In this document: positions 3,322 to 38,635 of the stretch, in pieces
How the letters are laid out: the number at the start of each line of letters is the position of its first letter
Position numbering within the stretch: the stretch's first letter is position 1
Source of the DNA: Streptomyces antibioticus
GTDB taxonomy: Bacteria; Actinomycetota; Actinomycetes; Streptomycetales; Streptomycetaceae
Reading direction: 5' to 3'
Assembly (NCBI RefSeq): GCF_001514065.1
Contig: NZ_KQ948426.1
Coordinates: 703,419 to 767,418, forward strand
Length of the DNA stretch: 64,000 bases
Position numbers and translations under genes: made by a program
The notes under the pieces: generated by a model
Seen by the model: only the letters and a program-made list of their open reading frames with translations
Databases searched by the model: none
What the model was told of the DNA's origin: nothing

Positions 3322-3393
3322 AGCGGGTGACAGGAATTGCACACTGCGCCTTCCCCCTGGAAGGGGGATGTTCTGCTACTGAACTACACCCGC
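3322..3393 (-). tRNA. tRNA-Gly (anticodon TCC) with an irregular elbow
   Basis: Acceptor stem GCGGGTG/CACCCGC pairs perfectly. The anticodon stem is TCCCC/GGGGA with loop CTTCCAG, giving anticodon TCC. The D-loop has AG where elongator tRNAs have GG (18-19), and the T-loop has TGC where TTC (54-56) is expected. The T-stem pairs only as GCAG/CTGT plus one closing pair if a single T is bulged. All other parts are tRNA-like and it is transcribed ahead of a normal tRNA-Gly, so it is probably expressed. See the finding on its elbow. Confidence 0.9.
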
Positions 3394-17854: not shown

Positions 17855-18061
17855 ATGACCGCTCGCACCCCTGATGCCGAGCCGCTGCTGACCCCGGCTG
17901 AGGTCGCCACCATGTTCCGCGTGGACCCGAAGACGGTCACGCGGTGGGCGAAGGCCGGGAAGCTTACTTCCATCCGTACGCTCGGCGGGCACCGCCGCTA
18001 CCGCGAGGCGGAGGTCCGTGCACTGCTCGCGGGCATCCCGCAGCAGCGCAGCGAGGCCTGA
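17855..18061 (+). CDS. bldC: Developmental regulator BldC (MerR-like DNA-binding protein)
   Basis: 68 residues consisting of almost a single winged helix-turn-helix: LLTPAEVATMFRVDPKTVTRWAKAGKLTSIRTLGG, then HRRYREAEV. There is no dimerisation helix or ligand domain, which distinguishes BldC from classical MerR proteins. BldC binds direct repeats head-to-tail and delays entry into development in Streptomyces. ATG 17855 is fixed by the strong GAGGAGG site. A strong terminator follows at 18208-18247. Confidence 0.97.
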   Translation: MTARTPDAEPLLTPAEVATMFRVDPKTVTRWAKAGKLTSIRTLGGHRRYREAEVRALLAGIPQQRSEA

Positions 18062-18207
18062 ACCAACTGAATAACGGACAAACCGGCAGGTCCCCCAACG
18101 TGCCGATACGTCCGTGACACCGCTTCACAAGCTCCAAGCGACGCGGGTTCCGCCCCAACGGGGCCCACGCCCAAGCTCATCCCAAGAACATCACAGGGTG
18201 CGTCGTA

Positions 18208-18247
18208 GATCGCGCTGGACTCCGCCGGGTCCAGCGCGATCTTTTTT
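18208..18247 (+). terminator. Strong intrinsic terminator of bldC
   Basis: Perfect 12-bp stem (GATCGCGCTGGA and complement) with a 10-nt loop, immediately followed by six T residues (18242-18247). It is one of the few terminators here with a true U-tract. Confidence 0.93.
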
Positions 18248-18521
18248 GTGCGCGCGGAGCGTCCGGCTGCCGGCTCTGTGAGCGGGCTTGTCGGAGTCTG
18301 GGGAGGGGTGTCGGATCTCCTGTGGACGTCCCCTCCGGACTGGTGCAATTGCACATATTAAATTGACCAGTTGTAGGCGAAGGGTAAGTACCGCGGTTTC
18401 AGAAACTCATGCGGTGACACCCGTCACATGCCAGAGTCCTTGTTGCCTCTGGCTCATGTGCGCTAGAGGAGGCATGCGTTCCAGCGTCCCACGCCAGTAC
18501 GGGTGTTGGGGCCGCCGTTGG
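18248..18521. other. Gene-free stretch with a small palindrome
   Basis: No ORF with coding character. It contains a perfect 12-bp palindrome GTGCAATTGCAC at 18343-18354 and, just after, a promoter-like TTGACC at about 18363 reading rightward, but no gene follows on that strand. It could serve a short untranslated RNA; nothing else supports this. Confidence 0.3.
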
Positions 18522-18716
18522 TCATGCGTCGGCGGGACTTTCGTCCTGTACCGGCTCGTCGGCCCCCTCGGGAGCGCTGCGGGGCGGGGAGGCCATCGCC
18601 AGCCGCAGCAGCTGATGGCAGATCGGGCAGTGCCGGGTGAGATGGCGATAGGAGGAGGCGGCCGACAGATGGGCACGGAGCAGCGCCCGCGTCTCGTGCC
18701 TGACCGAAGCCGCCAT
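18522..18716 (-). CDS. Small conserved Streptomyces protein with a CxxC/His motif (DUF6274-like)
   Basis: 64 residues. The core reads ETRALLRAHLSAASSYRHLTRHCPICHQLLRLAM, with His-x-Cys-x2-Cys-His spacing that could bind a metal. The tail is acidic and low-complexity. I recall a Streptomyces-specific small family of this shape (DUF6274), with no known function. ATG 18716 has a good GGAGGTG ribosome-binding site. The longer in-frame extension upstream runs through tRNA-like repeats and is not credible. Confidence 0.7.
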   Translation of the reverse strand: MAASVRHETRALLRAHLSAASSYRHLTRHCPICHQLLRLAMASPPRSAPEGADEPVQDESPADA

Positions 18717-18864
18717 ACGCCACCTCCAGGGGCCGCACAGGGAAGGGGCCCTGGTTTCTGGGTACCGACCGAATGTGACGCCGTCAAGACGGCACGAGGC
18801 GGCTGAGGGGGCTGTGCGGGGAGAGGCCCAGCTGGTCGACGTACGGCTGGACGCACAAACAAGA

Positions 18865-18890
18865 AAGCCCGGATCCGAAGATCCGGGCTT
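18865..18890 (-). terminator. Terminator closing the tRNA-Asp-derived array
   Basis: Perfect 11-bp stem (AAGCCCGGATC and complement) with a 4-nt loop. In the direction of tRNA-Asp transcription it is the last hairpin after the three repeat units. Confidence 0.85.
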
Positions 18891-18897
18891 CTTTACT

Positions 18898-19302
18898 GCG
18901 GTCCTGACGGGATTTGCTGTACTCGATTGAGGCTGCGCCGCGGGCGCGGCCTCCACCTTGGCAGGGTGGCGAGCGGGTTGAGCGTGAAGAAGGGCCGTGC
19001 CCTTGTCGGGGCACGACCCTTGCTTCTTTGCTGCGGTCCTGACGGGATTTGCTGTACTCGATTGAGGCTGCGCCGCGGGCGCGGCCTCCACCTTGGCCGG
19101 GTGGCGAGCGGGTTGAGCGTGAAGAAGGGCCGTGCCGTTGTCGGGGCACGACCCTTGCTTCTTTACTGCGGTCCTGACGGGATTTGCTGGACCCGATTGC
19201 GGCTGCGCCGCGGGCGCGGCCTCCACCTTGGCCGGGTGGCGAGCGGGTTGAGCGTGAAGAAGGGCCGTGCCCTTGTCGGGGCACGACCCTTGCTTCCTTA
19301 CT
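18898..19302 (-). repeat. Three tandem 135-bp units made of tRNA-Asp fragments plus a terminator hairpin
   Basis: Units at 18898-19032, 19033-19167 and 19168-19302 have an exact 135-bp period and very few differences. Each carries the 3' end of tRNA-Asp (acceptor, T-stem and part of the T-loop), a roughly 27-nt insertion inside the T-loop, then the anticodon arm with anticodon GTC changed to GCC. The D-loop and 5' acceptor strand are missing. Each unit also has a 13-bp hairpin with one G-U pair (18990-19021, 19125-19156, 19260-19291) like a tRNA terminator. The array directly abuts the 3' end of the intact tRNA-Asp. None of the units can fold into a full tRNA. Confidence 0.92.
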
Positions 19303-19303
19303 G

Positions 19304-19378
19304 CGGTCCTGACGGGATTTGAACCCGCGGCCTCCACCTTGACAGGGTGGCGAGCACTCCAAACTGCTCCACAGGACC
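19304..19378 (-). tRNA. tRNA-Asp (anticodon GTC), copy adjoining the repeat array
   Basis: Acceptor GGTCCTG/CAGGACC, anticodon stem CCACC/GGTGG with loop CTGTCAA (anticodon GTC), T-loop TTCAAAT, discriminator G as expected for tRNA-Asp. The sequence is identical to the copy at 24035-24109. A TACAGT -10-like element sits 51 nt upstream (19430-19435). CCA is not encoded. Confidence 0.97.
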
Positions 19379-19472
19379 AGGTTTCGCGGCGCTTATTGTT
19401 GCATTGCGCTGCGAGAAGGACTGTACAGGAGGGTGAGGGTCCTGCGCGAACTCACCCCGTGTGCACGGTCGG

Positions 19473-22400
19473 TCACGGGACGGCCGCGTCGATCGCCTTC
19501 ACGATCCGCTTGTCCGAGATGGGGTACGCCGTGCCCAGCGCGTGGGCGAAATAGCTGACCCGGAGCTCCTCGATCATCCAGCGGATGTCCAGGACGGCGG
19601 CCGGCACCGGGCGGCCCTGCGGCATCTGCTCCAGGAGCCAGGCGTACTCGTCCTGCATCTCGTGGACCTTCTCCATGCGCGTCGTGTCCCGCTGCACGGC
19701 CGTCGGCATCTGCTGGAGGCGACGGTCGGCGGCGACCAGGTAGCGCATCAGGTCCGGCAGCCGGCGCAGCCCCGTCGCCGTCACGAAGCCCGGCTTCACG
19801 AGGGCGTCCAGCTGCTTGCGCACGTCCGTCAGGTTCGCGAGGAGCGCGGGGCTGCGTACGCCCTTCAGACGGCGCTCACAGGCCTGCCAGGCGGCCAGCA
19901 CCTGCTGCACCTGCCCGACCGTGCGCACCGTCGTGTCGACGATCTCCGCGCGGACCTTGTCGTACAGCTTCCGGTACGACTCCTCGTCCCACGCCGGTCC
20001 CCCGAAGTCGCCGATCAGCTTGTCCGCCGCCGCCATCGCGCAGTCGTCGAACAGGGCCTGGATCGTGCCGTGGGGGTTGGCGGAGAGCGCCAGCTTCTGG
20101 GCGTTCGTCAGGTGATCGCTCGCGAACTTCGCCGGGTTCACCGGGATGTTGCGGAGCACCAGCCTGCGCGTGCCCTTCCACATTGCCTCAGCCTGCTCCG
20201 CCTCGGTGTCGAAGAGCCGGACCGAGACCGTGTCGCCGTCGTCCACGAGGGCCGGGTACGCCTTCACCGGCTGACCGGCCCGGCGCGTCTCGAAGACCCG
20301 CGTCAGCGTGCCGATCGTCCAGTCCGTGAGGCCCTTGCGCTCCAGGGACTCGCCGCCCTGGCGCTCGGCGGTGGCCGCCGCGGCCTGCGAGAGGGCCTGG
20401 CGCGCCTTCGGCTTCAGCCGGAGCTTCAGTGCCTCAAGATCCTTGTCCTCGGCCAGCTTGCGGCGCCGCTCGTCGACGATCCGGAAGGTGATGCGCAGGT
20501 GCTCGGGGATCTTCGACCAGTCGAAGTCCTCGGCCTCGAAGGGCACCCCGACCATGCGCTTCAGCTCACGGGCCATGGTGGTCGTGAGGGGCTCCTGAAG
20601 GGGGACCGCCGTGTCCAGGAAGCGTTTGGCGAAGTTCGGCGCCGGGACGTAGTTGCGGCGGATCGGCTTGGGGAGGGAGCGGATCAGCTCCGTCACGACC
20701 TCCTCGCGCAGGCCCGGGATCTGCCAGTCGAAGCCCTCGTCCGTGACCTGGTTGAGGACCTGGAGCGGGATGTGGACGGTGACACCGTCGGCGTCCGCGC
20801 CCGGCTCGAACTGGTAGGTGACCCGGAACTTCAGCTGGCCCTGCCGCCAGGAGTCCGGATAGTCGGCCTTGGTGACCGCCTCCGCCGACTCCCGGATGAG
20901 CATCTCCCGCTCGAAGTCGAGGAAGTCGGGCTGCTCGTGCCGCTTGCGCTTCCACCAGGAGTCGAAGTGGGCGCCGGAGACGACGTGGTCGGGCACCCGC
21001 TGGTCGTAGAAGTCGAAGAGGGTGTCGTCGTCGACGACGATGTCCCGGCGCCGGGCGCGGTGTTCGAGCTCCTCGACCTCGCTCAGCAGCTTGCGGTTGT
21101 CGGCGTAGAACTTGTGGTGCGTACGCCAGTCGCCCTCGACGAGCGCGTTGCGGATGAAAAGCTCGCGGCTCGTCTCGGGGTCGATCCGGCCGTAGTTGAC
21201 CTTGCGCTGGGCGACGATCGGTACGCCGTACAGCGTGACCTTCTCGTACGCCATCACGGCCGCCTGGTCCTTCTCCCAGTGCGGTTCGGAGTACGTCCGC
21301 TTCAGCAGGTGCTCGGCGAGCGGCTCGACCCACTCCGGCTCGATCTTGGCGTTGACGCGGGCCCAGAGGCGCGAAGTCTCCACCAGCTCCGCCGACATGA
21401 CGAAACGGGGCTGCTTCTTGAAGAGCGACGAGCCCGGGAAGATCGCGAACTTGGCGCTGCGGGCGCCCAGGTACTCGTTCTTGTTGCCGTCCTTCACGTC
21501 CTTCATCCCGATGTGGGAGAGAAGGCCGGCGAGGAGGGAGACGTGGACGGACTGGTCCGGCGCGTCGTCCTCGTTGAGATGGATGCCCATCTGCTTGGCG
21601 ACGGTGCGCAGTTGCGTATAGATGTCCTGCCATTCGCGGATGCGCAGGAAGTTGAGGTACTCCTGCTTGCACATCCGGCGGAAGGACGACGACCCCCGCT
21701 CCTTCTGCTGCTCGCGGACGTACCGCCACAGGTTCAGATAGGCGAGGAAGTCGCTGGTCTCGTCGCGGAAGCGGGCGTGCTGCTGGTCGGCCTGGGTCTG
21801 CTTGTCGGCGGGGCGCTCACGCGGGTCCTGGATGGACAGCGCCGCCGCTATGACCATGACCTCGCGAACACAGCCGTTCTTGTCGGCCTCCAGGACCATT
21901 CGGGCCAGCCGCGGGTCCACAGGCAGCTGGGCGAGTTTGCGGCCGGTGTCGGTGAGGCGCTTGCGCGGGTCCTTCTCGGCCGGGTTCAGCGCGCCGAGCT
22001 CCTGGAGGAGCTGGACGCCGTCGCGGATGTTGCGGTGGTCCGGCGGGTCGATGAAGGGGAACTTCTCGATGTCGCCGAGGCCGGCCGCGGTCATCTGGAG
22101 GATGACGGAGGCGAGGTTCGTGCGGAGGATCTCCGCGTCCGTGAACTCCGGGCGGGCGAGGAAGTCGTCCTCGCTGTACAGCCGGATGCAGACACCGTCG
22201 GACGTACGGCCGCAGCGGCCCTTGCGCTGGTTGGCGCTGGCCTGCGAGATCGCCTCGATGGGGAGCCGCTGGACCTTGGTGCGGTGGCTGTAGCGGGAGA
22301 TACGGGCGAAGCCCGGGTCGATGACGTACTTGATGCCCGGGACGGTGAGGGAGGTCTCGGCGACGTTCGTCGCCAGAACGATCCTGCGGCCGGTGTGCGG

Positions 22401-23441
22401 CTGGAAGACGCGGTGCTGCTCGGCGTGCGAGAGCCGGGCGTAGAGGGGGAGGACTTCCGTGAACCGGTAGTTCTTCTTGTTCAACGCGTCCGCGGTGTCG
22501 CGGATCTCCCGTTCGCCCGAGAGGAAGACCAGGATGTCGCCCTTGCCCTCGCCCTGGAGCTCCTCGACGGCGTCGCAGATCGCGGTGATCTGGTCGCGGT
22601 CGGCGTCCTCGGAGTCCTCTTCGAGCAGCGGGCGGTAGCGGACCTCCACCGGGTAGGTCCGGCCGCTGACCTCGACGATCGGGGCGTCCCCGAAGTGCCG
22701 GGAGAAGCGCTCGGGATCGATGGTGGCGGAGGTGATGACGACTTTCAGATCCGGCCGCTTCGGCAGCAGCTGGGCCAGATAGCCGAGCAGGAAGTCGATG
22801 TTGAGGGACCGCTCGTGGGCCTCGTCGATGATGATCGTGTCGTAGGCGCGCAGCTCGCGGTCGGTCTGGATCTCGGCGAGCAGGATGCCGTCGGTCATCA
22901 GCTTGACGAAGGTGGCGTCCGGGTTCACCTGGTCGGTGAACCGCACCTTCCAGCCGACGGCCTCGCCGAGGGGGGTGTTCAGCTCCTCGGCCACACGCTC
23001 GGCGACGGTCCGGGCGGCGATACGGCGGGGCTGCGTGTGCCCGATCATGCCGCGGACGCCACGACCCAGCTCCATACAGATCTTCGGGATCTGGGTCGTC
23101 TTGCCGGACCCGGTCTCACCGGCCACGATCACGACCTGGTGATCACGGATGGCGTCCGCGATCTCGTCCTTCTTCTGGCTGACCGGGAGCTGCTCGGGAT
23201 AGCTGACGGCGGGCACGCGGGAGCGGCGCCCGGCCATGCGTTCCTCGGCCTTCGCGACCTCGCCCTCGATCTCGGCGAGCACGGCGGCACGGGCCTCCGG
23301 CTTGCGGATCTTGCGCGCGCCTTCGAGCCGGCGGCCGATCCGGTGCGCGTCACGCAGGGACAGCTCGCTCAGGCGGGGGGCGAGGGCGCCGAGGCTCGGG
23401 GCATCGGAGGCGCCGGGGGCGGGGGCGGGATGCGTAGACAT
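19473..23441 (-). CDS. hrpA: ATP-dependent RNA helicase HrpA (DEAH family)
   Basis: 1322 residues, the normal size for bacterial HrpA. Motifs in order: Walker A GETGSGKTTQ (about residues 107-116), TQPRRIAA, DEAH in IIDEAHERS, SAT (ITSATID), and motif VI QRKGRCGR. After the helicase core come the HA2/OB-fold region and the long C-terminal DUF3418 region (ending VSYFAHALGTAYPISDKR). HrpA resolves stalled or collided ribosomes in other bacteria. ATG 23441. It is a single gene lying between two tRNA loci. Confidence 0.96.
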   Translation of the reverse strand: MSTHPAPAPGASDAPSLGALAPRLSELSLRDAHRIGRRLEGARKIRKPEARAAVLAEIEGEVAKAEERMAGRRSRVPAVSYPEQLPVSQKKDEIADAIRDHQVVIVAGETGSGKTTQIPKICMELGRGVRGMIGHTQPRRIAARTVAERVAEELNTPLGEAVGWKVRFTDQVNPDATFVKLMTDGILLAEIQTDRELRAYDTIIIDEAHERSLNIDFLLGYLAQLLPKRPDLKVVITSATIDPERFSRHFGDAPIVEVSGRTYPVEVRYRPLLEEDSEDADRDQITAICDAVEELQGEGKGDILVFLSGEREIRDTADALNKKNYRFTEVLPLYARLSHAEQHRVFQPHTGRRIVLATNVAETSLTVPGIKYVIDPGFARISRYSHRTKVQRLPIEAISQASANQRKGRCGRTSDGVCIRLYSEDDFLARPEFTDAEILRTNLASVILQMTAAGLGDIEKFPFIDPPDHRNIRDGVQLLQELGALNPAEKDPRKRLTDTGRKLAQLPVDPRLARMVLEADKNGCVREVMVIAAALSIQDPRERPADKQTQADQQHARFRDETSDFLAYLNLWRYVREQQKERGSSSFRRMCKQEYLNFLRIREWQDIYTQLRTVAKQMGIHLNEDDAPDQSVHVSLLAGLLSHIGMKDVKDGNKNEYLGARSAKFAIFPGSSLFKKQPRFVMSAELVETSRLWARVNAKIEPEWVEPLAEHLLKRTYSEPHWEKDQAAVMAYEKVTLYGVPIVAQRKVNYGRIDPETSRELFIRNALVEGDWRTHHKFYADNRKLLSEVEELEHRARRRDIVVDDDTLFDFYDQRVPDHVVSGAHFDSWWKRKRHEQPDFLDFEREMLIRESAEAVTKADYPDSWRQGQLKFRVTYQFEPGADADGVTVHIPLQVLNQVTDEGFDWQIPGLREEVVTELIRSLPKPIRRNYVPAPNFAKRFLDTAVPLQEPLTTTMARELKRMVGVPFEAEDFDWSKIPEHLRITFRIVDERRRKLAEDKDLEALKLRLKPKARQALSQAAAATAERQGGESLERKGLTDWTIGTLTRVFETRRAGQPVKAYPALVDDGDTVSVRLFDTEAEQAEAMWKGTRRLVLRNIPVNPAKFASDHLTNAQKLALSANPHGTIQALFDDCAMAAADKLIGDFGGPAWDEESYRKLYDKVRAEIVDTTVRTVGQVQQVLAAWQACERRLKGVRSPALLANLTDVRKQLDALVKPGFVTATGLRRLPDLMRYLVAADRRLQQMPTAVQRDTTRMEKVHEMQDEYAWLLEQMPQGRPVPAAVLDIRWMIEELRVSYFAHALGTAYPISDKRIVKAIDAAVP

Positions 23442-23543
23442 ACGCGATCCAGGATCTCATCCCGGCGAAATTCATGGCGAACGCTTTTGCCGCGGGCGGC
23501 GGGCGTGCGTGTGAGACGCGCGGGAGACGCCGTGAGATCGGCC

Positions 23544-23861
23544 TCAGGAAACCTGGAAGACGTCCCCCGGCCCCTGCGCGGGTACCGCGGCCTCGGCCTC
23601 GCGCCGGCGCCGGTTCTCGTCGAGGGCGATCGACTTGGCCGTGTTGGAGACCGCCTTGATCCCCAGGTAGGCCGTGGTCATGGTGCTCACCGCGGTGAAG
23701 GCGGCGGTGAGGATGGCCACGGCGACGGACTGGTCGCCGTCCAGTCGCCAGACACCGATGACCGCCACCACCACGATCGCCAGATTGCTGGACACCACCG
23801 CCAGCAGTCCGTACCGGGCCCGAGCGAGCTCCACCCCGTCCCCCTGCACAGCCTTGGCCAT
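23544..23861 (-). CDS. Small membrane protein, two predicted helices
   Basis: 105 residues. A short cytoplasmic N-terminus precedes a first helix (YGLLAVVSSNLAIVVVAVIG), a short loop (VWRLDGDQS), a second helix (VAVAILTAAFTAVSTMTTAY), then a basic coiled tail (ENRRRREAEAA). I recognise no family. ATG 23861 is preceded by AGGGGGAG; an in-frame ATG at 23885 is possible but would overlap little else. It lies directly downstream of the tRNA operon terminator. Confidence 0.7.
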   Translation of the reverse strand: MAKAVQGDGVELARARYGLLAVVSSNLAIVVVAVIGVWRLDGDQSVAVAILTAAFTAVSTMTTAYLGIKAVSNTAKSIALDENRRRREAEAAVPAQGPGDVFQVS

Positions 23862-23898
23862 CGTCTCCCCCTGAGCACTGAGCATCGAGTAGGAACGA

Positions 23899-23930
23899 CG
23901 AAGCCCCTCCGGCTTCCCGGAGGGGCTTCG
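23899..23930 (-). terminator. Terminator of the tRNA Glu-Asp-Phe operon
   Basis: Perfect 14-bp stem (CGAAGCCCCTCCGG and complement) with a CTTC/GAAG tetraloop, beginning 5 nt beyond the encoded CCA of tRNA-Phe. Confidence 0.92.
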
Positions 23931-23934
23931 ATCA

Positions 23935-24011
23935 TGGTGGCTGGGGCCGGGGTCGAACCGGCGACCTATCGCTTTTCAGGCGATCGCTCGTACCAACTGA
24001 GCTACCCAGCC
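23935..24011 (-). tRNA. tRNA-Phe (anticodon GAA), CCA encoded
   Basis: Acceptor GGCTGGG/CCCAGCC, anticodon stem ATCGC/GCGAT with loop CTGAAAA (anticodon GAA), T-loop TTCGACC. Discriminator A is followed by CCA in the DNA, unlike the other tRNAs in the window. It is the last gene of the operon. Confidence 0.97.
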
Positions 24012-24034
24012 ACGAGGCTTCAGGGAAACCTCAG

Positions 24035-24109
24035 CGGTCCTGACGGGATTTGAACCCGCGGCCTCCACCTTGACAGGGTGGCGAGCACTCCAAACTGCTC
24101 CACAGGACC
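24035..24109 (-). tRNA. tRNA-Asp (anticodon GTC), operon copy
   Basis: Identical in sequence to tRNA-Asp at 19304-19378, with anticodon loop CTGTCAA. It is the middle gene of the Glu-Asp-Phe operon. The flanking sequences differ from the other copy and no repeat array follows it. Confidence 0.97.
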
Positions 24110-24147
24110 AAGCTGTTGCGTACGACAGTGTCGCACACGGTGTTGCG

Positions 24148-24220
24148 TGCCCCCAACGGGATTCGAACCCGTGCTACCGCCTTGAAAGGGCGGCGTCCTA
24201 GGCCGCTAGACGATGAGGGC
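24148..24220 (-). tRNA. tRNA-Glu (anticodon TTC)
   Basis: Acceptor GCCCTCA/TGGGGGC (one G-U pair), anticodon stem CCGCC/GGCGG with loop CTTTCAA (anticodon TTC), normal T-loop TTCGAAT. It is the first gene of the tRNA operon. Confidence 0.97.
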
Positions 24221-24263
24221 TATCGGCCCGCCTTGCGCTTCGCAGCGCGTCGGGGACGTGAGA

Positions 24264-24293
24264 AGCATATGGGATGCCGGGAGGTATCGCCAA
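24264..24293 (-). promoter_or_regulatory. Promoter of the tRNA Glu-Asp-Phe operon
   Basis: On the minus strand TTGGCG (24288-24293), an 18-nt spacer and TATGCT (24264-24269) lie about 44 nt upstream of tRNA-Glu. The same TATGCT -10 element precedes tRNA-Lys (34000-34005) and the initiator tRNA (39983-39988). Confidence 0.7.
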
Positions 24294-24299
24294 AACGGT

Positions 24300-25883
24300 T
24301 TAGGGAGCCCGGCTGGAAGGGGTGGAGGGCGGGGTCGGGGAGGGGGTCGGCGAGTGGGTCGCGCCCGGCAGGTTGTCCTCCGGGAGATGGCGGCTGACCT
24401 CGGCGGTCGTCAGGCCGAGGCCGCCCAGTTTGATCGAGTCCCAGGCCTGGAGGCGGCGGGTGTCCCGGTCGAAGTAGAGGATCGAGGCCTCGATCGGGTC
24501 CGGGTACTTGCCCTCGACCGCGCGCAGCCCGCTGCCGCCGGTGGAGCCCTCGACGCGCAGCCGGGTGCCGTTGCTCATGACCTCGGTGTCCTCGTGGTGC
24601 AGGTGCCCGGAGAGGACCAGCGGGACCGAGCCGTCGACCTCGCGGGCGGCGGAGGGTTCGTGGATCACGGCGACGTCGACGGGCTTCCCGGCGGTCGTCC
24701 AGTCCCGCAGCGACGCGGCGAGCCGGGCGCCGGCCGCCTCCTGGGTCTCCTGGGCGCCGGACTTCTCGCTGCGGTCGGGCGTGAACTGGGGATCGCCCAG
24801 CCCGGCGAAGCGCAGCCCGGCGACGGTCTCGGCGCGGCCGTCGTCGAGGACGTGGACGTTCTTCATGCGTTCCAGGTAGCGCTGGGTGACCCGGGAGTCG
24901 TGGTTGCCGCGGACCCAGACGTAGGGCGCCCCGAGGTCGGCGACCGGGTCGAGGAAGCCGTTCTCGGCGGCGGTGCCGTGGTCCATGGTGTCGCCGGAGT
25001 CGACGATGACGTTGACCTGGTACTGCTCCACCAGCGAGGCGATGATCTTCCAGCTCGCCGGGTTCAGATGGATGTCGGAGACGTGCAGGACGCGGATGGT
25101 CGTGGGGTCCGGCTGGTAGGCGGGAAGCGTGGACGTGACGTCGTACAGCTTGGTCACGTTCGTCACCAGGCGGGCCAGTTCCTGCTGGTAGACGTCGAAC
25201 TCGGTGACGATGCTGCGGGCGTTGCCGACCAGGGACGGTGCCGAGGAGAGCAGGCCGGAGAACTTCGGCTGGAGGACCGAGTCGGGGTTCCAGGTGGCGT
25301 ACGCCGTCCCGCCGGACGCGGCCAGCAGGGTCAGGGCGAGGCCGCCGGCGGCGAGGGCGCGGCGCGGGCGGCGGTAGACGGCGAGGCCGAGGGCGGTGGC
25401 GCCGGCGACGACGGCGACGCAGGAGCGCAGGGCCAGGTCGAGGGTGCCGTGTTCGACGTCCTTCGCGACCTCGTCCTGGAGGCCGGAGAGGCGTTCGGGG
25501 TGGTCGACCAGGGCCTGGGAGCGGGCCGGGTCGAGCTGGTCGACGTTGACGTCGAGGCGGACCGGGGCGTGGTGGCTGTCCAGTTGCAGGGCGCCGAGCG
25601 GGGAGATGTTGATCTTTGTGCCGCCGGTGAGGGACGGGCGGAGGGTCATCGTGGTGTTCATGGGCCCGACGGGGGTGCGGACGTTGCCCACGATCAGCAG
25701 GCCCAGCCAGGCGCCGAGCAGCACCACCGCGACCAGGCCGAGGGCGCGGCCCCACGGGTGCGGCTGGGGGACGAGCTCGACGGCCGGGTGCGGGCGGCGG
25801 GCGCGGTAGTGCCGGGCGAGGGTGCGCGGCGAGCGGCGGACACGGATCAGGGCGTTCAGGACTGCGGCGGGGACGCGGGCCAT
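24300..25883 (-). CDS. Membrane-anchored metallophosphoesterase
   Basis: 527 residues. A basic N-terminus precedes a membrane helix (ALGLVAVVLLGAWLGLLIVG, about residues 47-66). Two further hydrophobic segments follow in the middle. The C-terminal half is a calcineurin-like phosphoesterase with all metal motifs: HVSDIHLN, DSGDTMDHG, RGNHDS, VIHEP and SGHLHHE. The catalytic domain follows the last membrane segments and its side of the membrane is not certain. ATG 25883 lacks a strong ribosome-binding site but begins the family-like sequence. Substrate unknown. Confidence 0.88.
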   Translation of the reverse strand: MARVPAAVLNALIRVRRSPRTLARHYRARRPHPAVELVPQPHPWGRALGLVAVVLLGAWLGLLIVGNVRTPVGPMNTTMTLRPSLTGGTKINISPLGALQLDSHHAPVRLDVNVDQLDPARSQALVDHPERLSGLQDEVAKDVEHGTLDLALRSCVAVVAGATALGLAVYRRPRRALAAGGLALTLLAASGGTAYATWNPDSVLQPKFSGLLSSAPSLVGNARSIVTEFDVYQQELARLVTNVTKLYDVTSTLPAYQPDPTTIRVLHVSDIHLNPASWKIIASLVEQYQVNVIVDSGDTMDHGTAAENGFLDPVADLGAPYVWVRGNHDSRVTQRYLERMKNVHVLDDGRAETVAGLRFAGLGDPQFTPDRSEKSGAQETQEAAGARLAASLRDWTTAGKPVDVAVIHEPSAAREVDGSVPLVLSGHLHHEDTEVMSNGTRLRVEGSTGGSGLRAVEGKYPDPIEASILYFDRDTRRLQAWDSIKLGGLGLTTAEVSRHLPEDNLPGATHSPTPSPTPPSTPSSRAP

Positions 25884-27209: not shown

Positions 27210-29420
27210 ATGTCCATTTCCAGTTCTGATCACATCGTCATGCCCGAGAACGACGAGAACGAGGCGGCCGTCGAGGCGCTCGAGACCGTCGACTCGGTCT
27301 CCTCGGCCGACTCGGCCGACGAGACCCCCGAGGTCACCTTCGCCGACCTCGGTCTGCCCGAGGGCGTCGTGCGCAAGCTCGCGCAGAACGGTGTGACCAC
27401 CCCCTTCCCGATCCAGGCCGCGACCATCCCGGACGCCCTGGCCGGCAAGGACATCCTCGGCCGTGGCCGCACCGGCTCCGGCAAGACCCTCTCCTTCGGT
27501 CTGCCGACCCTGGCGCGTCTCGCCGGCGGCCGCACCGAGAAGCACAAGCCCCGCGCGGTCATCCTCACCCCGACCCGTGAGCTCGCGATGCAGGTCGCGG
27601 ACGCCCTCCAGCCTTACGGCGACGTCGTCGGCCTGAAGATGAAGGTCGTCTGCGGCGGCACGTCGATGGGCAACCAGATCTACGCCCTGGAGCGCGGCGT
27701 CGACATCCTCGTCGCCACCCCGGGCCGACTGCGCGACATCATCAACCGCGGTGCCTGCTCCCTGGAGAACGTCGAGGTCGCCGTTCTCGACGAGGCCGAC
27801 CAGATGTCCGACCTGGGCTTCCTGCCCGAGGTCACCGAGCTGCTCGACCAGGTCCCGGCCGGCGGCCAGCGCATGCTGTTCTCCGCCACGATGGAGAACG
27901 AGATCTCCACGCTGGTCAAGCGCTACCTGGTCGACCCGGTCTCGCACGAGGTCGACAGCGCCCAGGGCAACGTCACGACGATGTCCCACCACATCCTGAT
28001 CGTGAAGCCCAAGGACAAGGCGCCGGTCACCGCGGCCATCGCCTCCCGCAAGGGCCGCACCATCATCTTCGTCCGCACCCAGCTGGGCGCCGACCGCATC
28101 GCCGAGCAGCTGCGCGAGGCCGGTGTGAAGGCCGACGCGCTGCACGGCGGCATGACCCAGGGCGCCCGCACCCGCACGCTGGCCGACTTCAAGGACGGCT
28201 ACGTCAACGCGCTCGTCGCCACCGACGTCGCCGCCCGCGGCATCCACGTGGACGGCATCGACCTGGTCCTCAACGTGGACCCGGCCGGCGACCACAAGGA
28301 CTACCTGCACCGCGCGGGCCGCACGGCGCGTGCCGGTCGCACGGGTACGGTCGTCTCCCTCTCCCTGCCGCACCAGCGCCGCCAGATCTTCCGCCTGATG
28401 GAGGACGCGGGCGTCGACGCCGGCCGCCACATCATCCAGGGCGCCGGCGCCTTCGACCCCGAGGTCGCCGAGATCACCGGTGCCCGGTCGATGACCGAGG
28501 TCCAGGCCGAGTCCGCGGGCAACGCCGCGCAGCAGGCCGAGCGTGAGGTCGCCTCCCTGACCAAGCAGCTGGAGCGGGCGCAGCGCCGCGCGACCGAGCT
28601 GCGCGAGGAGGCCGACCGCCTCGTCGCCCGGGCCGCCCGCGACCGCGGTGAGGACCCGGAGGCCGCGGTGGCCGAGGCGCAGGCGGAGGCCGTGGCCGCC
28701 GTCGAGGCCGCCGCGGTGGCCGTGCCCGAGCAGCCCGCGGCGCAGGACGTCGACCGTGACGACCGCGGTGGCCGTGGCTTCGAGCGCCGTGACAACGACC
28801 GTGGCGGCTTCCGCCGCGACGACCGTCCGTCCGGCCGCTCCTTCGAGCGCCGTGACGACCGCGGTGGCCGTGGGTTCGAGCGCCGGGACAACGACCGTGG
28901 CGGCTTCCGCCGTGACGACCGTCCGGCCGGCCGTTCCTTCGAGCGTCGTGACGACCGTGGCGGCTTCAACCGCGACAACCGCGACAACCGTGGCGAGCGT
29001 GGCTTCGAGCGCCGTGACAACGACCGCGGCGGCTTCCGCCGTGACGACCGCCGCGACGACCGCGGTGGCCGTTCCTTCGAGCGTCGTGACGACCGCGGTG
29101 GCTTCAACCGCGACAACCGCGACAACCGCGACCGTGGCGAGCGTGGCTTCGAGCGTCGGGACAACGACCGTGGCGGCTTCCGTCGCGACGAGCGTCCGGC
29201 CGGCCGTTCCTTCGAGCGTCGTGACGAGCGTGGCGGCCACCGTGGCAGCGACCGTCCCTTCAACCGCGACCGCCGCGACGACCGTCCGGGCTTCCGCTCC
29301 GGTGGCCACGAGCGCCCCTACGGCCGCCGTGACGACCACCGCGGCACCGGTACCGGCTCCGGTTCCGGCTCGTCCTTCGGCCGCCGCGACGACAAGCCGC
29401 GCTGGAAGCGCAACGGCTGA
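27210..29420 (+). CDS. DEAD-box RNA helicase with a long Arg/Asp/Gly-repeat tail
   Basis: 736 residues. Core motifs: Q motif (TPFPIQ), Walker A (GRTGSGKTLSFG), PTRELA, DEAD (LDEADQMSDLG), SAT, and HRAGRTARAG. After about residue 430 comes a predicted coiled coil, then from about residue 510 an Arg/Asp/Gly/Phe-rich tail of repeated FERRDNDRGGFRRDD-type modules to the end. Such tails bind RNA and can drive condensate formation. It resembles DeaD/RhlE proteins of actinobacteria. ATG 27210 has GGAAGG upstream at a rather long distance. A terminator follows at 29440. Confidence 0.95.
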   Translation: MSISSSDHIVMPENDENEAAVEALETVDSVSSADSADETPEVTFADLGLPEGVVRKLAQNGVTTPFPIQAATIPDALAGKDILGRGRTGSGKTLSFGLPTLARLAGGRTEKHKPRAVILTPTRELAMQVADALQPYGDVVGLKMKVVCGGTSMGNQIYALERGVDILVATPGRLRDIINRGACSLENVEVAVLDEADQMSDLGFLPEVTELLDQVPAGGQRMLFSATMENEISTLVKRYLVDPVSHEVDSAQGNVTTMSHHILIVKPKDKAPVTAAIASRKGRTIIFVRTQLGADRIAEQLREAGVKADALHGGMTQGARTRTLADFKDGYVNALVATDVAARGIHVDGIDLVLNVDPAGDHKDYLHRAGRTARAGRTGTVVSLSLPHQRRQIFRLMEDAGVDAGRHIIQGAGAFDPEVAEITGARSMTEVQAESAGNAAQQAEREVASLTKQLERAQRRATELREEADRLVARAARDRGEDPEAAVAEAQAEAVAAVEAAAVAVPEQPAAQDVDRDDRGGRGFERRDNDRGGFRRDDRPSGRSFERRDDRGGRGFERRDNDRGGFRRDDRPAGRSFERRDDRGGFNRDNRDNRGERGFERRDNDRGGFRRDDRRDDRGGRSFERRDDRGGFNRDNRDNRDRGERGFERRDNDRGGFRRDERPAGRSFERRDERGGHRGSDRPFNRDRRDDRPGFRSGGHERPYGRRDDHRGTGTGSGSGSSFGRRDDKPRWKRNG

Positions 29421-37411: not shown

Positions 37412-38539
37412 ATGCCCCACCCGTACGTCCTCCTCTCCGCCGCCGTCTCCCTCGACGGCTACCTCGACGACACCGGCCCCGACCGGCTCCTGCTCTCCTC
37501 CCCGGCCGACTTCGACCGCGTCGACGAGGTCCGCGCCTCCGTCGACGCGATCCTGATCGGCGCCGGCACCATCCGCGCAGACAACCCGCGCCTGCTGGTG
37601 AACTCCGCGGAGCGCCGCGCGGCCCGGCTGGCGGCGGGCAAGCCGGAGTACCCCCTGAAGGTCACGGTCAGCGGCTCGGGCGACCTGGACCCGGAGGCGA
37701 ACTTCTGGCACACGGGCGGCGACAAGGTCGTCTACACGACGGACAAGGGCGCCGAGCGTGCCGAGGCGCACGGCCTCGCCGCCGACGTCGTCTCCCTCGG
37801 CGCCGACCTCGACTGGCACCGCCTGCTGGCCGACCTCACCGCCCGGGGCGTGGACCGCCTCATGGTCGAGGGCGGCGGCCGGATCCACACCCAGCTCCTC
37901 CAGCTGGGCCTCGCCGACGAACTCCAGCTGGTGCTGGCCCCGTTGTTCGTCGGCACCCCGGAAGCCCCCCGCCTCTTCGGCCCGGGCGGCTATCAGGCCG
38001 GACGCCTGCGGCTGACGGAAACCCGGCAGATCGAGGACGTGGTCCTCATGCGCTACGAACCCACCGCCCCCGGCACCGGCCCGCGCGCCACGCCCGCCGA
38101 CCACCACTGGCTCCGTCTCGCCTGCGAACTGGCGACGCTCTGCCCGCCCTCGCGGACCGCGTTCAGCGTCGGCGCGGTCGTGGTCGCCGCCGACGGCACC
38201 GAACTCGCCCGCGGGCATTCGAGGGAGGGCGACGACCCCGTCGTACACGCGGAGGAGGCGGCCCTGGCGAAGGTCGACCCGAACGACCCCCGGCTCGCGT
38301 CGGCGACCGTCTACAGCAGCCTGGAGCCCTGCGCCCGCCGCGCCTCCCGCCCCGCGCCCTGCGCCCGGCTGATCCTCGACGCCGGAGTACGACGGGTCGT
38401 GACGGCCTGGCGGGAGCCGGACACGTTCGTGGCGGCGGCGGACGGGAACGGGCTGCTGGCGGCGCAGGGGGTCGACGTCGTCGTACTGCCGGAGTACGAG
38501 GAGCGGGCGAAGGCGCCCAACAAGCACTTGCTGTCGTAG
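37412..38539 (+). CDS. RibD-like bifunctional protein with reversed domain order (reductase then deaminase)
   Basis: 375 residues. Residues 1 to about 225 are a RibD C-terminal-type reductase: VLLSAAVSLDGYLDD, ILIGAGTIRADNPRLLV and LMVEGGGRIHTQLL. Residues about 235-375 are a cytidine-deaminase-like zinc domain: GAVVVAADG, VVHAEEAAL (His-Ala-Glu) and EPCARRASRPAPC (two Cys ligands). Canonical RibD has the deaminase first, so the fusion is inverted. The Cys spacing is nine residues rather than the usual eight. It would perform the two steps after RibA in riboflavin synthesis. ATG 37412. Its last 45 bp are tandemly repeated downstream. Confidence 0.9.
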   Translation: MPHPYVLLSAAVSLDGYLDDTGPDRLLLSSPADFDRVDEVRASVDAILIGAGTIRADNPRLLVNSAERRAARLAAGKPEYPLKVTVSGSGDLDPEANFWHTGGDKVVYTTDKGAERAEAHGLAADVVSLGADLDWHRLLADLTARGVDRLMVEGGGRIHTQLLQLGLADELQLVLAPLFVGTPEAPRLFGPGGYQAGRLRLTETRQIEDVVLMRYEPTAPGTGPRATPADHHWLRLACELATLCPPSRTAFSVGAVVVAADGTELARGHSREGDDPVVHAEEAALAKVDPNDPRLASATVYSSLEPCARRASRPAPCARLILDAGVRRVVTAWREPDTFVAAADGNGLLAAQGVDVVVLPEYEERAKAPNKHLLS

Positions 38540-38635
38540 GGGCGAGAGCGGGCGAAGGCGCAAACAAGCACATGCTGTCGTAGGGGCGAGGAGCGGGCGA
38601 AGGCGCCGAACAGGCGCCTGTTGCCCTGATCGTGG
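38501..38635 (+). repeat. Three 45-bp tandem copies of the 3' end of the RibD-like gene
   Basis: Copies start at 38501, 38546 and 38591. The first encodes the C-terminus (ERAKAPNKHLLS and stop) of the RibD-like protein. The second keeps the same sequence with a few changes, including the stop codon. The third has diverged at its 3' end. Confidence 0.88.

Follow-up and report, generated by a model that had tools for sequence, protein, structure and literature searches.

The tandem array behind a tRNA-Asp gene of Streptomyces antibioticus raises the question of what it is and how it came about. The earlier note had offered two answers, stacked remnants of repeated integration and a transcribed array of tRNA-like fragments. 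We analyzed the array in a window of 64,000 nucleotides and compared it with the corresponding loci of relatives. The reading we prefer, at about even chances, is that a tRNA-Asp pseudogene became fused with a dispersed palindromic repeat and was amplified, homogenised and lost via recombination or slippage.

Architecture of the array

The array lies on the minus strand, hence downstream of tRNA-Asp, and consists of three 135-bp units in tandem, with pairwise identities of 95.6, 96.3 and 97.8%. Tandem Repeats Finder reported a period of 135 at positions 18887-19321 (3.2 copies, 97% matches, 0% indels, score 821), and exact copies of the 17-nt tRNA tail end 135, 270 and 405 nt past tRNA-Asp. 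Each unit runs from CAG... through a 13-pair hairpin (T1), a short linker, a 30-nt tRNA-Asp-like stretch and a 29-nt insert, here called X, to the 17-nt tRNA-Asp tail (Table 1). The 30-nt stretch spans tRNA-Asp from the end of the D-arm to the start of the T-stem. In unit 1, 28 of its 30 positions are the same as in tRNA-Asp (alignment score 26), and none of 2000 dinucleotide shuffles aligned as well. The anticodon triplet reads GCC in all three units.

These results agree with what the earlier note had seen: units of exactly 135 bp that continue directly from the intact tRNA-Asp and originate from it, with a changed anticodon and a 13-bp hairpin. The T-loop insertion that it described is correct in that 29 nt are inserted, but the loop is not merely enlarged, as X replaces GGTTC. 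The internal hairpins are likewise present in the units, but the hairpin at the end of the array (T2), which has a T-rich tail, is a different one.

ARAGORN called the intact tRNA-Asp but no tRNA in any of the three units. The units thus hold recognisable parts of tRNA-Asp without a foldable tRNA, the 5' half of the T-stem being gone, and can be classed as a tRNA pseudogene array. A reading frame (18522-19337) is open through the array; we rejected the array as a coding sequence because unit lengths in other species are often no multiple of three. The tRNA-Asp in front of the array is identical over 77 bp to a second tRNA-Asp 4.7 kb away. For S. coelicolor, an excerpt of a published account mentions two identical tRNA-Asp genes (PMC9262613). 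A literature search, covering titles and abstract starts of open-licence papers, gave nothing on this array.

Elsewhere in the window, positions 28754-29237 are taken up by tandem repeats, 33-144 bp in size, that overlap one another, abound in CGTGACGACCG and perhaps encode a repetitive protein tail, and 2.4 copies of a 45-bp unit (92% matches) occupy positions 38497-38606.

Table 1. Position of the array, its parts and its neighbours in the window.
Feature	Position	Strand	Basis
Intact tRNA-Asp (GTC), locus B, directly upstream of array	19303..19378	-	ARAGORN, Rfam tRNA
Unit 1, 135 bp: hairpin, anticodon arm, X, 17-nt tail	19169..19303	-	tandem repeat and tail register
Unit 2, 135 bp	19034..19168	-	tandem repeat and tail register
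Unit 3, 135 bp	18899..19033	-	tandem repeat and tail register
Unit hairpin T1, 13 pairs, loop of 6, no long T tract (unit 1)	19260..19291	-	hairpin search
T1 in units 2 and 3	19125-19156, 18990-19021	-	135-bp register
Anticodon arm, variable loop and T-stem start of tRNA-Asp, GCC (unit 1)	19215..19244	-	alignment and shuffles
Anticodon-arm stretch in the other units	19080-19109, 18945-18974	-	135-bp register
X, 29 nt, in place of T-loop GGTTC (unit 1)	19186..19214	-	locus comparison
X in the other units	19051-19079, 18916-18944	-	135-bp register
tRNA-Asp tail AAATCCCGTCAGGACCG	19169..19185; also 19034-19050, 18899-18915	-	exact match
Closing terminator-like hairpin T2, T-rich tail	18864..18891	-	terminator call
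hrpA-type helicase, conserved neighbour upstream of tRNA-Asp	19473..23441	-	Pfam
DUF6274 gene, conserved neighbour downstream of array (start inferred)	18522..18716	-	Pfam
Second tRNA-Asp, identical; locus A, Glu-Asp-Phe operon, array-free here	24034..24109	-	ARAGORN

Occurrence in Streptomyces

A DNA search of 295 genomes of the same genus gave matches in 294, mainly to short tRNA or hairpin pieces, and the best 12 loci in other genomes matched at 71-82%. In all 29 loci fetched from other genomes, the chimera of X and tRNA tail was found behind tRNA-Asp. A pattern for X plus the end of the T-loop occurred in 43 of the 295 genomes (reversed control, 0), as did an exact-tail pattern with a base other than T before C. 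The union of the pattern searches, together with two variants (G013 and G235), places the chimera behind tRNA-Asp in at least 50 of the 295 genomes. The array is present in about one in six sampled relatives, with a come-and-go distribution.

Only a single kind of insert was found. All 57 exact broken-T-loop tails in the 295 genomes carry GC before AAATCCC, though the pattern allowed A or C, and X is present at all 57 (48 by pattern, five by reading and four by BLAST over X plus tail). Exact partial copies without X are all but absent, because 252 of the 258 genomes with any exact intact tail hold just one or two. The three intact tails each in G190 and G155 were considered as possible islands; the stretches read contain further complete Asp-Phe tRNA pairs (L309-L311), and this idea was rejected. 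Fusion of X to other tRNAs was also rejected, since genomes with a match numbered 27 of 295 for a pattern that ends in the usual T-loop sequence and about 40 for the reversed control, which is no excess. The matches of this pattern in G055 have X joined to another repeat instead.

In the GTDB species collection, 92 stretches matched the exact pattern; the 80 listed comprise 78 from Streptomyces, one from Streptantibioticus and one from Actinacidiphila. The chimera ends 78-302 bp past an intact same-strand tRNA-Asp in 77 of the 80 listed loci, while the remaining three are masked (L106), begin inside the tRNA (L109) or are rearranged (L070). The earlier note had argued that a 135-bp unit far from any tRNA would speak against a tRNA origin; no chimera away from tRNA-Asp was found, and a match of the X plus T-loop-end pattern at 3.79 Mb in G103 looks like chance. 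It had also proposed to compare unit number, which is not fixed: among 79 arrays including the window, 62 have a single tail copy, 14 have two and 3 have three, with at least one tail missed by this count (L112).

Gain or loss at a conserved locus

The locus itself is conserved. The hrpA gene is upstream in all 97 fetched loci, and the DUF6274 gene was found downstream in 81 of them, 40 of the 44 array-bearing loci and 41 of the 53 that lack an intact unit. Its distance is 100-657 bp, with a median of 379 bp where the array is present and 210 bp where it is absent. A tree of hrpA DNA was built with 97 rows, i.e., 44 loci with the array, 49 without and 4 relics, picked by presence or absence and not at random. 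On this tree array presence requires at least 24 changes, 21 of which are forced by well supported branches. Shuffles gave a mean of 32 changes, and only 1 of 500 was as low as the observed 24. Array presence is clustered on the tree yet very labile.

Relics were recognized by eye at 4 of the 53 loci without an intact unit. In the closest sister pair, L217 with the array and L282 without, the empty site corresponds to the sequence past the last unit (43.0 vs 10.5). For 16 sister pairs, the array-free site resembled the last-unit flank better in 4 and the tRNA flank better in 10, with 2 ties. The advantage of the tRNA flank was often small, being clear in L241/L249, L226/L271 and L216/L300, and many pairs were too diverged to tell. 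Sister pairs do not in general show a clean deletion from tail to tail. Three array-free loci (L259, L271 and L300) have two hairpins each, as judged by eye, and such loci fit an arrangement of tRNA, T1, pseudogene and T2 that lost its middle in some lineages.

Duplication and homogenisation

Units of one array mostly resemble each other more than they resemble those of other species. This holds for 12 of 14 arrays, a comparison from which three more multi-unit arrays were excluded for N runs or a missed tail. The best match of the window's units in another species has 85.5% identity, against 95.6-97.8% among themselves, in line with the earlier suggestion of recent duplication or homogenisation. 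In L099 and L136, units within one array are less alike than units between species. In G093, both units share one tail mutation.

The duplicated DNA is local. In 50 of 78 arrays, a set that includes two with N runs and omits one cut array, the 50 bases past the tRNA and the 50 bases past the last unit are more similar to each other than are 95% of cross-locus pairs. In the window and some other arrays, the flank past the tRNA differs from that past the last unit. In L066, L115, L134 and L246 the chimera is found at the other tRNA-Asp, in the Glu-Asp-Phe operon, where the duplicated DNA includes that locus's own spacer and tRNA-Phe, whole or in part. Because the DNA duplicated there is the locus's own, a second event or a transfer is needed. 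In L246, the X copies differ between the two tRNA-Asp loci.

Divergence of tail and insert

Divergence was determined for the first unit of each of 44 arrays, with hrpA third codon positions as the yardstick. The mean difference between species was 27.5% for the hrpA third positions and 24.6% for the right part of X, of which 2 of 13 bases lay in the search pattern. It was 7.4% for GAGGCCGCG, 0 for CCC and 1.4% for the last ten tail bases, these three segments being the only ones free of search-pattern bias. Most of AAATCCC was left out, as the search pattern covered it in the majority of the 44 arrays. We discarded the invariant X stem as a sign of selection, since the stem is inside the search pattern for most loci and its invariance is partly built in.

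With 1.4% difference as compared with 24.6% in the right part of X and 27.5% at hrpA third positions, the array tail is protected, and plain decay does not account for its being intact. Gene conversion from tRNA-Asp could guard the tail and is a likely candidate. Two loci count against this: in L112 the pseudogene lacks the change of tRNA-Asp at the one altered base common to both, and the mutation in the G093 tails is uncorrected.

Likeness of X to a dispersed repeat

At the level of sequence, array X is similar to one module of a repeat dispersed in Streptomyces, of the form GGGGCGCGGGG[AACTG or X]CGCGACCAGCC, which is REP-like and has many copies in the genome. In the genome of S. antibioticus, the X module is found dispersed in 22 copies (0-1 mismatches; reversed-pattern control, 1) and the X-less form, with AACTG in place of X, in 123 copies (up to 3 mismatches; control, 0). 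No tRNA was present in any of the 22 dispersed X loci, taken at 3 kb each. The likeness between array X and dispersed X is GCGGCGNAGCCGCA..TC..ACAGC, but with two mismatches, a one-base shift and a distinct consensus: across species, array X keeps to a consensus of its own, which differs in a loop base and AATCRGRYACAGC. The exact dispersed-X pattern matched 6 of 10 genomes and gave no match in G047, G044, G279 and G002, though array X is found there.

X is preceded by CGCG in the repeat as well as in the tRNA, and the few bases whose place it takes end in TTC. By eye, its left end is palindromic with the flank at three kinds of site, namely the tRNA-Asp T-loop, the dispersed repeat and a tRNA-Phe copy in L070. 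These palindromic junctions hint at template switching.

The tRNA-Phe copy of L070 (S. himalayensis) has an inverted X in its anticodon loop, at about 3345-3373, just behind the X-tail chimera. In L206, at about 1500-1630, X is joined to another repeat (AGCCCCTCCGGCGTTTGAGGAGC) in two copies 97 bp apart. Some X-less repeats form inverted pairs 69-93 bp apart, like small inverted-repeat elements (L150, L151, L167 and L168); examples in the genome of S. antibioticus are G000:C1:684006-684125 and C3:124497-124592.

Hairpins, transcription and RNA

If the array were a source of RNA as in E. coli tyrT, it would be co-transcribed with tRNA-Asp and processing of the precursor would release array RNAs. 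The architecture resembles that of E. coli K-12 tyrT, where rttR is annotated as a small RNA, and the tail is conserved. Moreover, among minus-strand terminator calls in the window, the closing hairpin was called and the unit hairpins were not. Against this, the first hairpins of 44 arrays match those of 49 array-free loci in strength (p 0.17) and T-richness (p 0.27), a mild argument against read-through. The last hairpins have a weaker folding energy (p 0.0002) and no higher T content (p 0.14). An apparent lack of T in first hairpins (p 0.005), seen with perfect stems only in 18 of the 44 arrays, was unconfirmed by a fold-based analysis of all 44. Owing to its hairpin, the unit is more stably folded than its shuffles (z -4.1); for the X-tail core no such excess was seen (z 0.03). 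Units 2 and 3 of the window have a disrupted X stem that no compensating change restores. Rfam gave no match inside the array up to E 1, and its matches in 18000-25000 were four tRNAs and sub-threshold others, none of them RtT. We infer that the array probably releases no RNA product and consider an rtT-like RNA source an unlikely explanation.

Selection for a stack of terminators, in which every unit contributes one more terminator to protect DUF6274 downstream, would account for the strong unit hairpins, for the closeness of that gene behind the array and for the two hairpins at some array-free loci. It sits poorly with the weaker last hairpin, with between-species conservation in the X palindrome and tail rather than in the hairpins, and with most sampled species having no array, and we regard it as very doubtful.

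The possibility of integration scars

Partial tRNA copies that share the 3' end and lie behind an intact tRNA are also what integration at tRNA 3' ends leaves behind, with X-tail as attR and the first hairpin as element DNA left after integration and deletion. The T-loop, where the tail begins, is a common crossover place of tyrosine integrases, and the filled and empty sites of L217 and L282 differ by one block. However, hrpA and DUF6274 were both identified in 81 of 97 loci and leave no room there for an integrase between them (DUF6274 was not found in the other 16), and a Pfam scan of six window ORFs gave no integrase. The plasmid collection gave no match to the chimera, viral contigs no exact pattern match, and the phage collection only weak matches to three Brevundimonas phages (E 0.009). 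The left arm of the T-loop core site (GCGGG) is gone, X resembles a dispersed repeat, and the DNA behind the tRNA is local and not element-specific in 50 of 78 arrays. Because an integrase has no room, no mobile element matches convincingly and the junctions are not varied, with one insert at all 57 tails, stacked integration scars, as the earlier note had proposed, are unlikely, and their derivation from an attR in the above way is highly improbable.

Proposed origin of the array

In the preferred reading, a pseudogene fused with a repeat, the founder would have been a second, 5'-truncated tRNA-Asp with its terminator behind tRNA-Asp; both this founder and its age are reconstructions. Replacement of its T-loop by X, a putative relative of the dispersed palindromic repeat, would give the order tRNA-Asp, T1, pseudogene (anticodon arm, X, tail), T2. 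The unit of T1 and pseudogene may then have been multiplied, here to three copies, by recombination between repeats or by slippage during replication, the presumed motor. Such exchange is possible because the array tail is the tRNA-Asp's own 3' end. The same process would homogenise units within a genome and permit their loss in other species, presumably by this route.

Comparison with known systems

Integration scars at tRNA 3' ends share the partial copies with the array, which differs in its single kind of insert, the lack of room for an integrase and the duplication of local flank. Partial tRNA copies are easily mistaken for such scars, and probably none are present here.

In architecture, the closest known system is E. 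coli tyrT/rtT. Both are tandem repeats directly behind a tRNA gene, with tail copies that start in the T-loop. At tyrT/tyrV of E. coli K-12, where RttR (a small RNA) and Tpr are annotated, we found 3.1 tandem copies of 178 bp behind tRNA-Tyr, with the tail from AATCC on in 178-bp steps. The last 19 nt of each rtT unit copy the tRNA tail exactly (AATCC...), and the unit includes sequence past the tRNA. In excerpts of the literature, rtT-like sequences are grouped among BIME repeats (PMC2965389) and the rtT transcript is described as a released RNA (PMC4986893). The differences lie in the unrelated sequence, the other tRNA and the other phylum, and the released RNA is that of E. coli. The anticodon arm is clear in the Streptomyces unit, whereas the tRNA likeness before the E. 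coli tail is not safely beyond chance, with 40 of 2000 shuffles as good; this likeness concerns AAGGTTCGA of the tRNA-Tyr T-arm, which lies about 66 bases before the tail (L315), as if the T-loop were interrupted. The array thus has its architecture in common with rtT, with tandem tRNA-tail repeats behind a tRNA, but is not a member of the RtT family of Rfam, whose sequence and structure model it does not match.

A broader conjecture, which we think rather improbable, is that distant phyla repeatedly form tRNA 3' arrays in which a dispersed palindromic repeat takes over the T-loop of a local copy of the tRNA 3' part, with X, as a small palindromic module, copied into hairpin loops (those of the tRNA-Asp copies, of the dispersed repeat and, in inverted form, of the tRNA-Phe copy in L070), perhaps by template switching, something guarding the tail, and the arrays feeding rtT-like small RNAs. 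The Streptomyces array provides a counterpart in architecture to E. coli tyrT/rtT from another phylum. It has been gained and lost many times in nature, so that the formation, homogenisation and function of tRNA-tail arrays can now be addressed through comparison.
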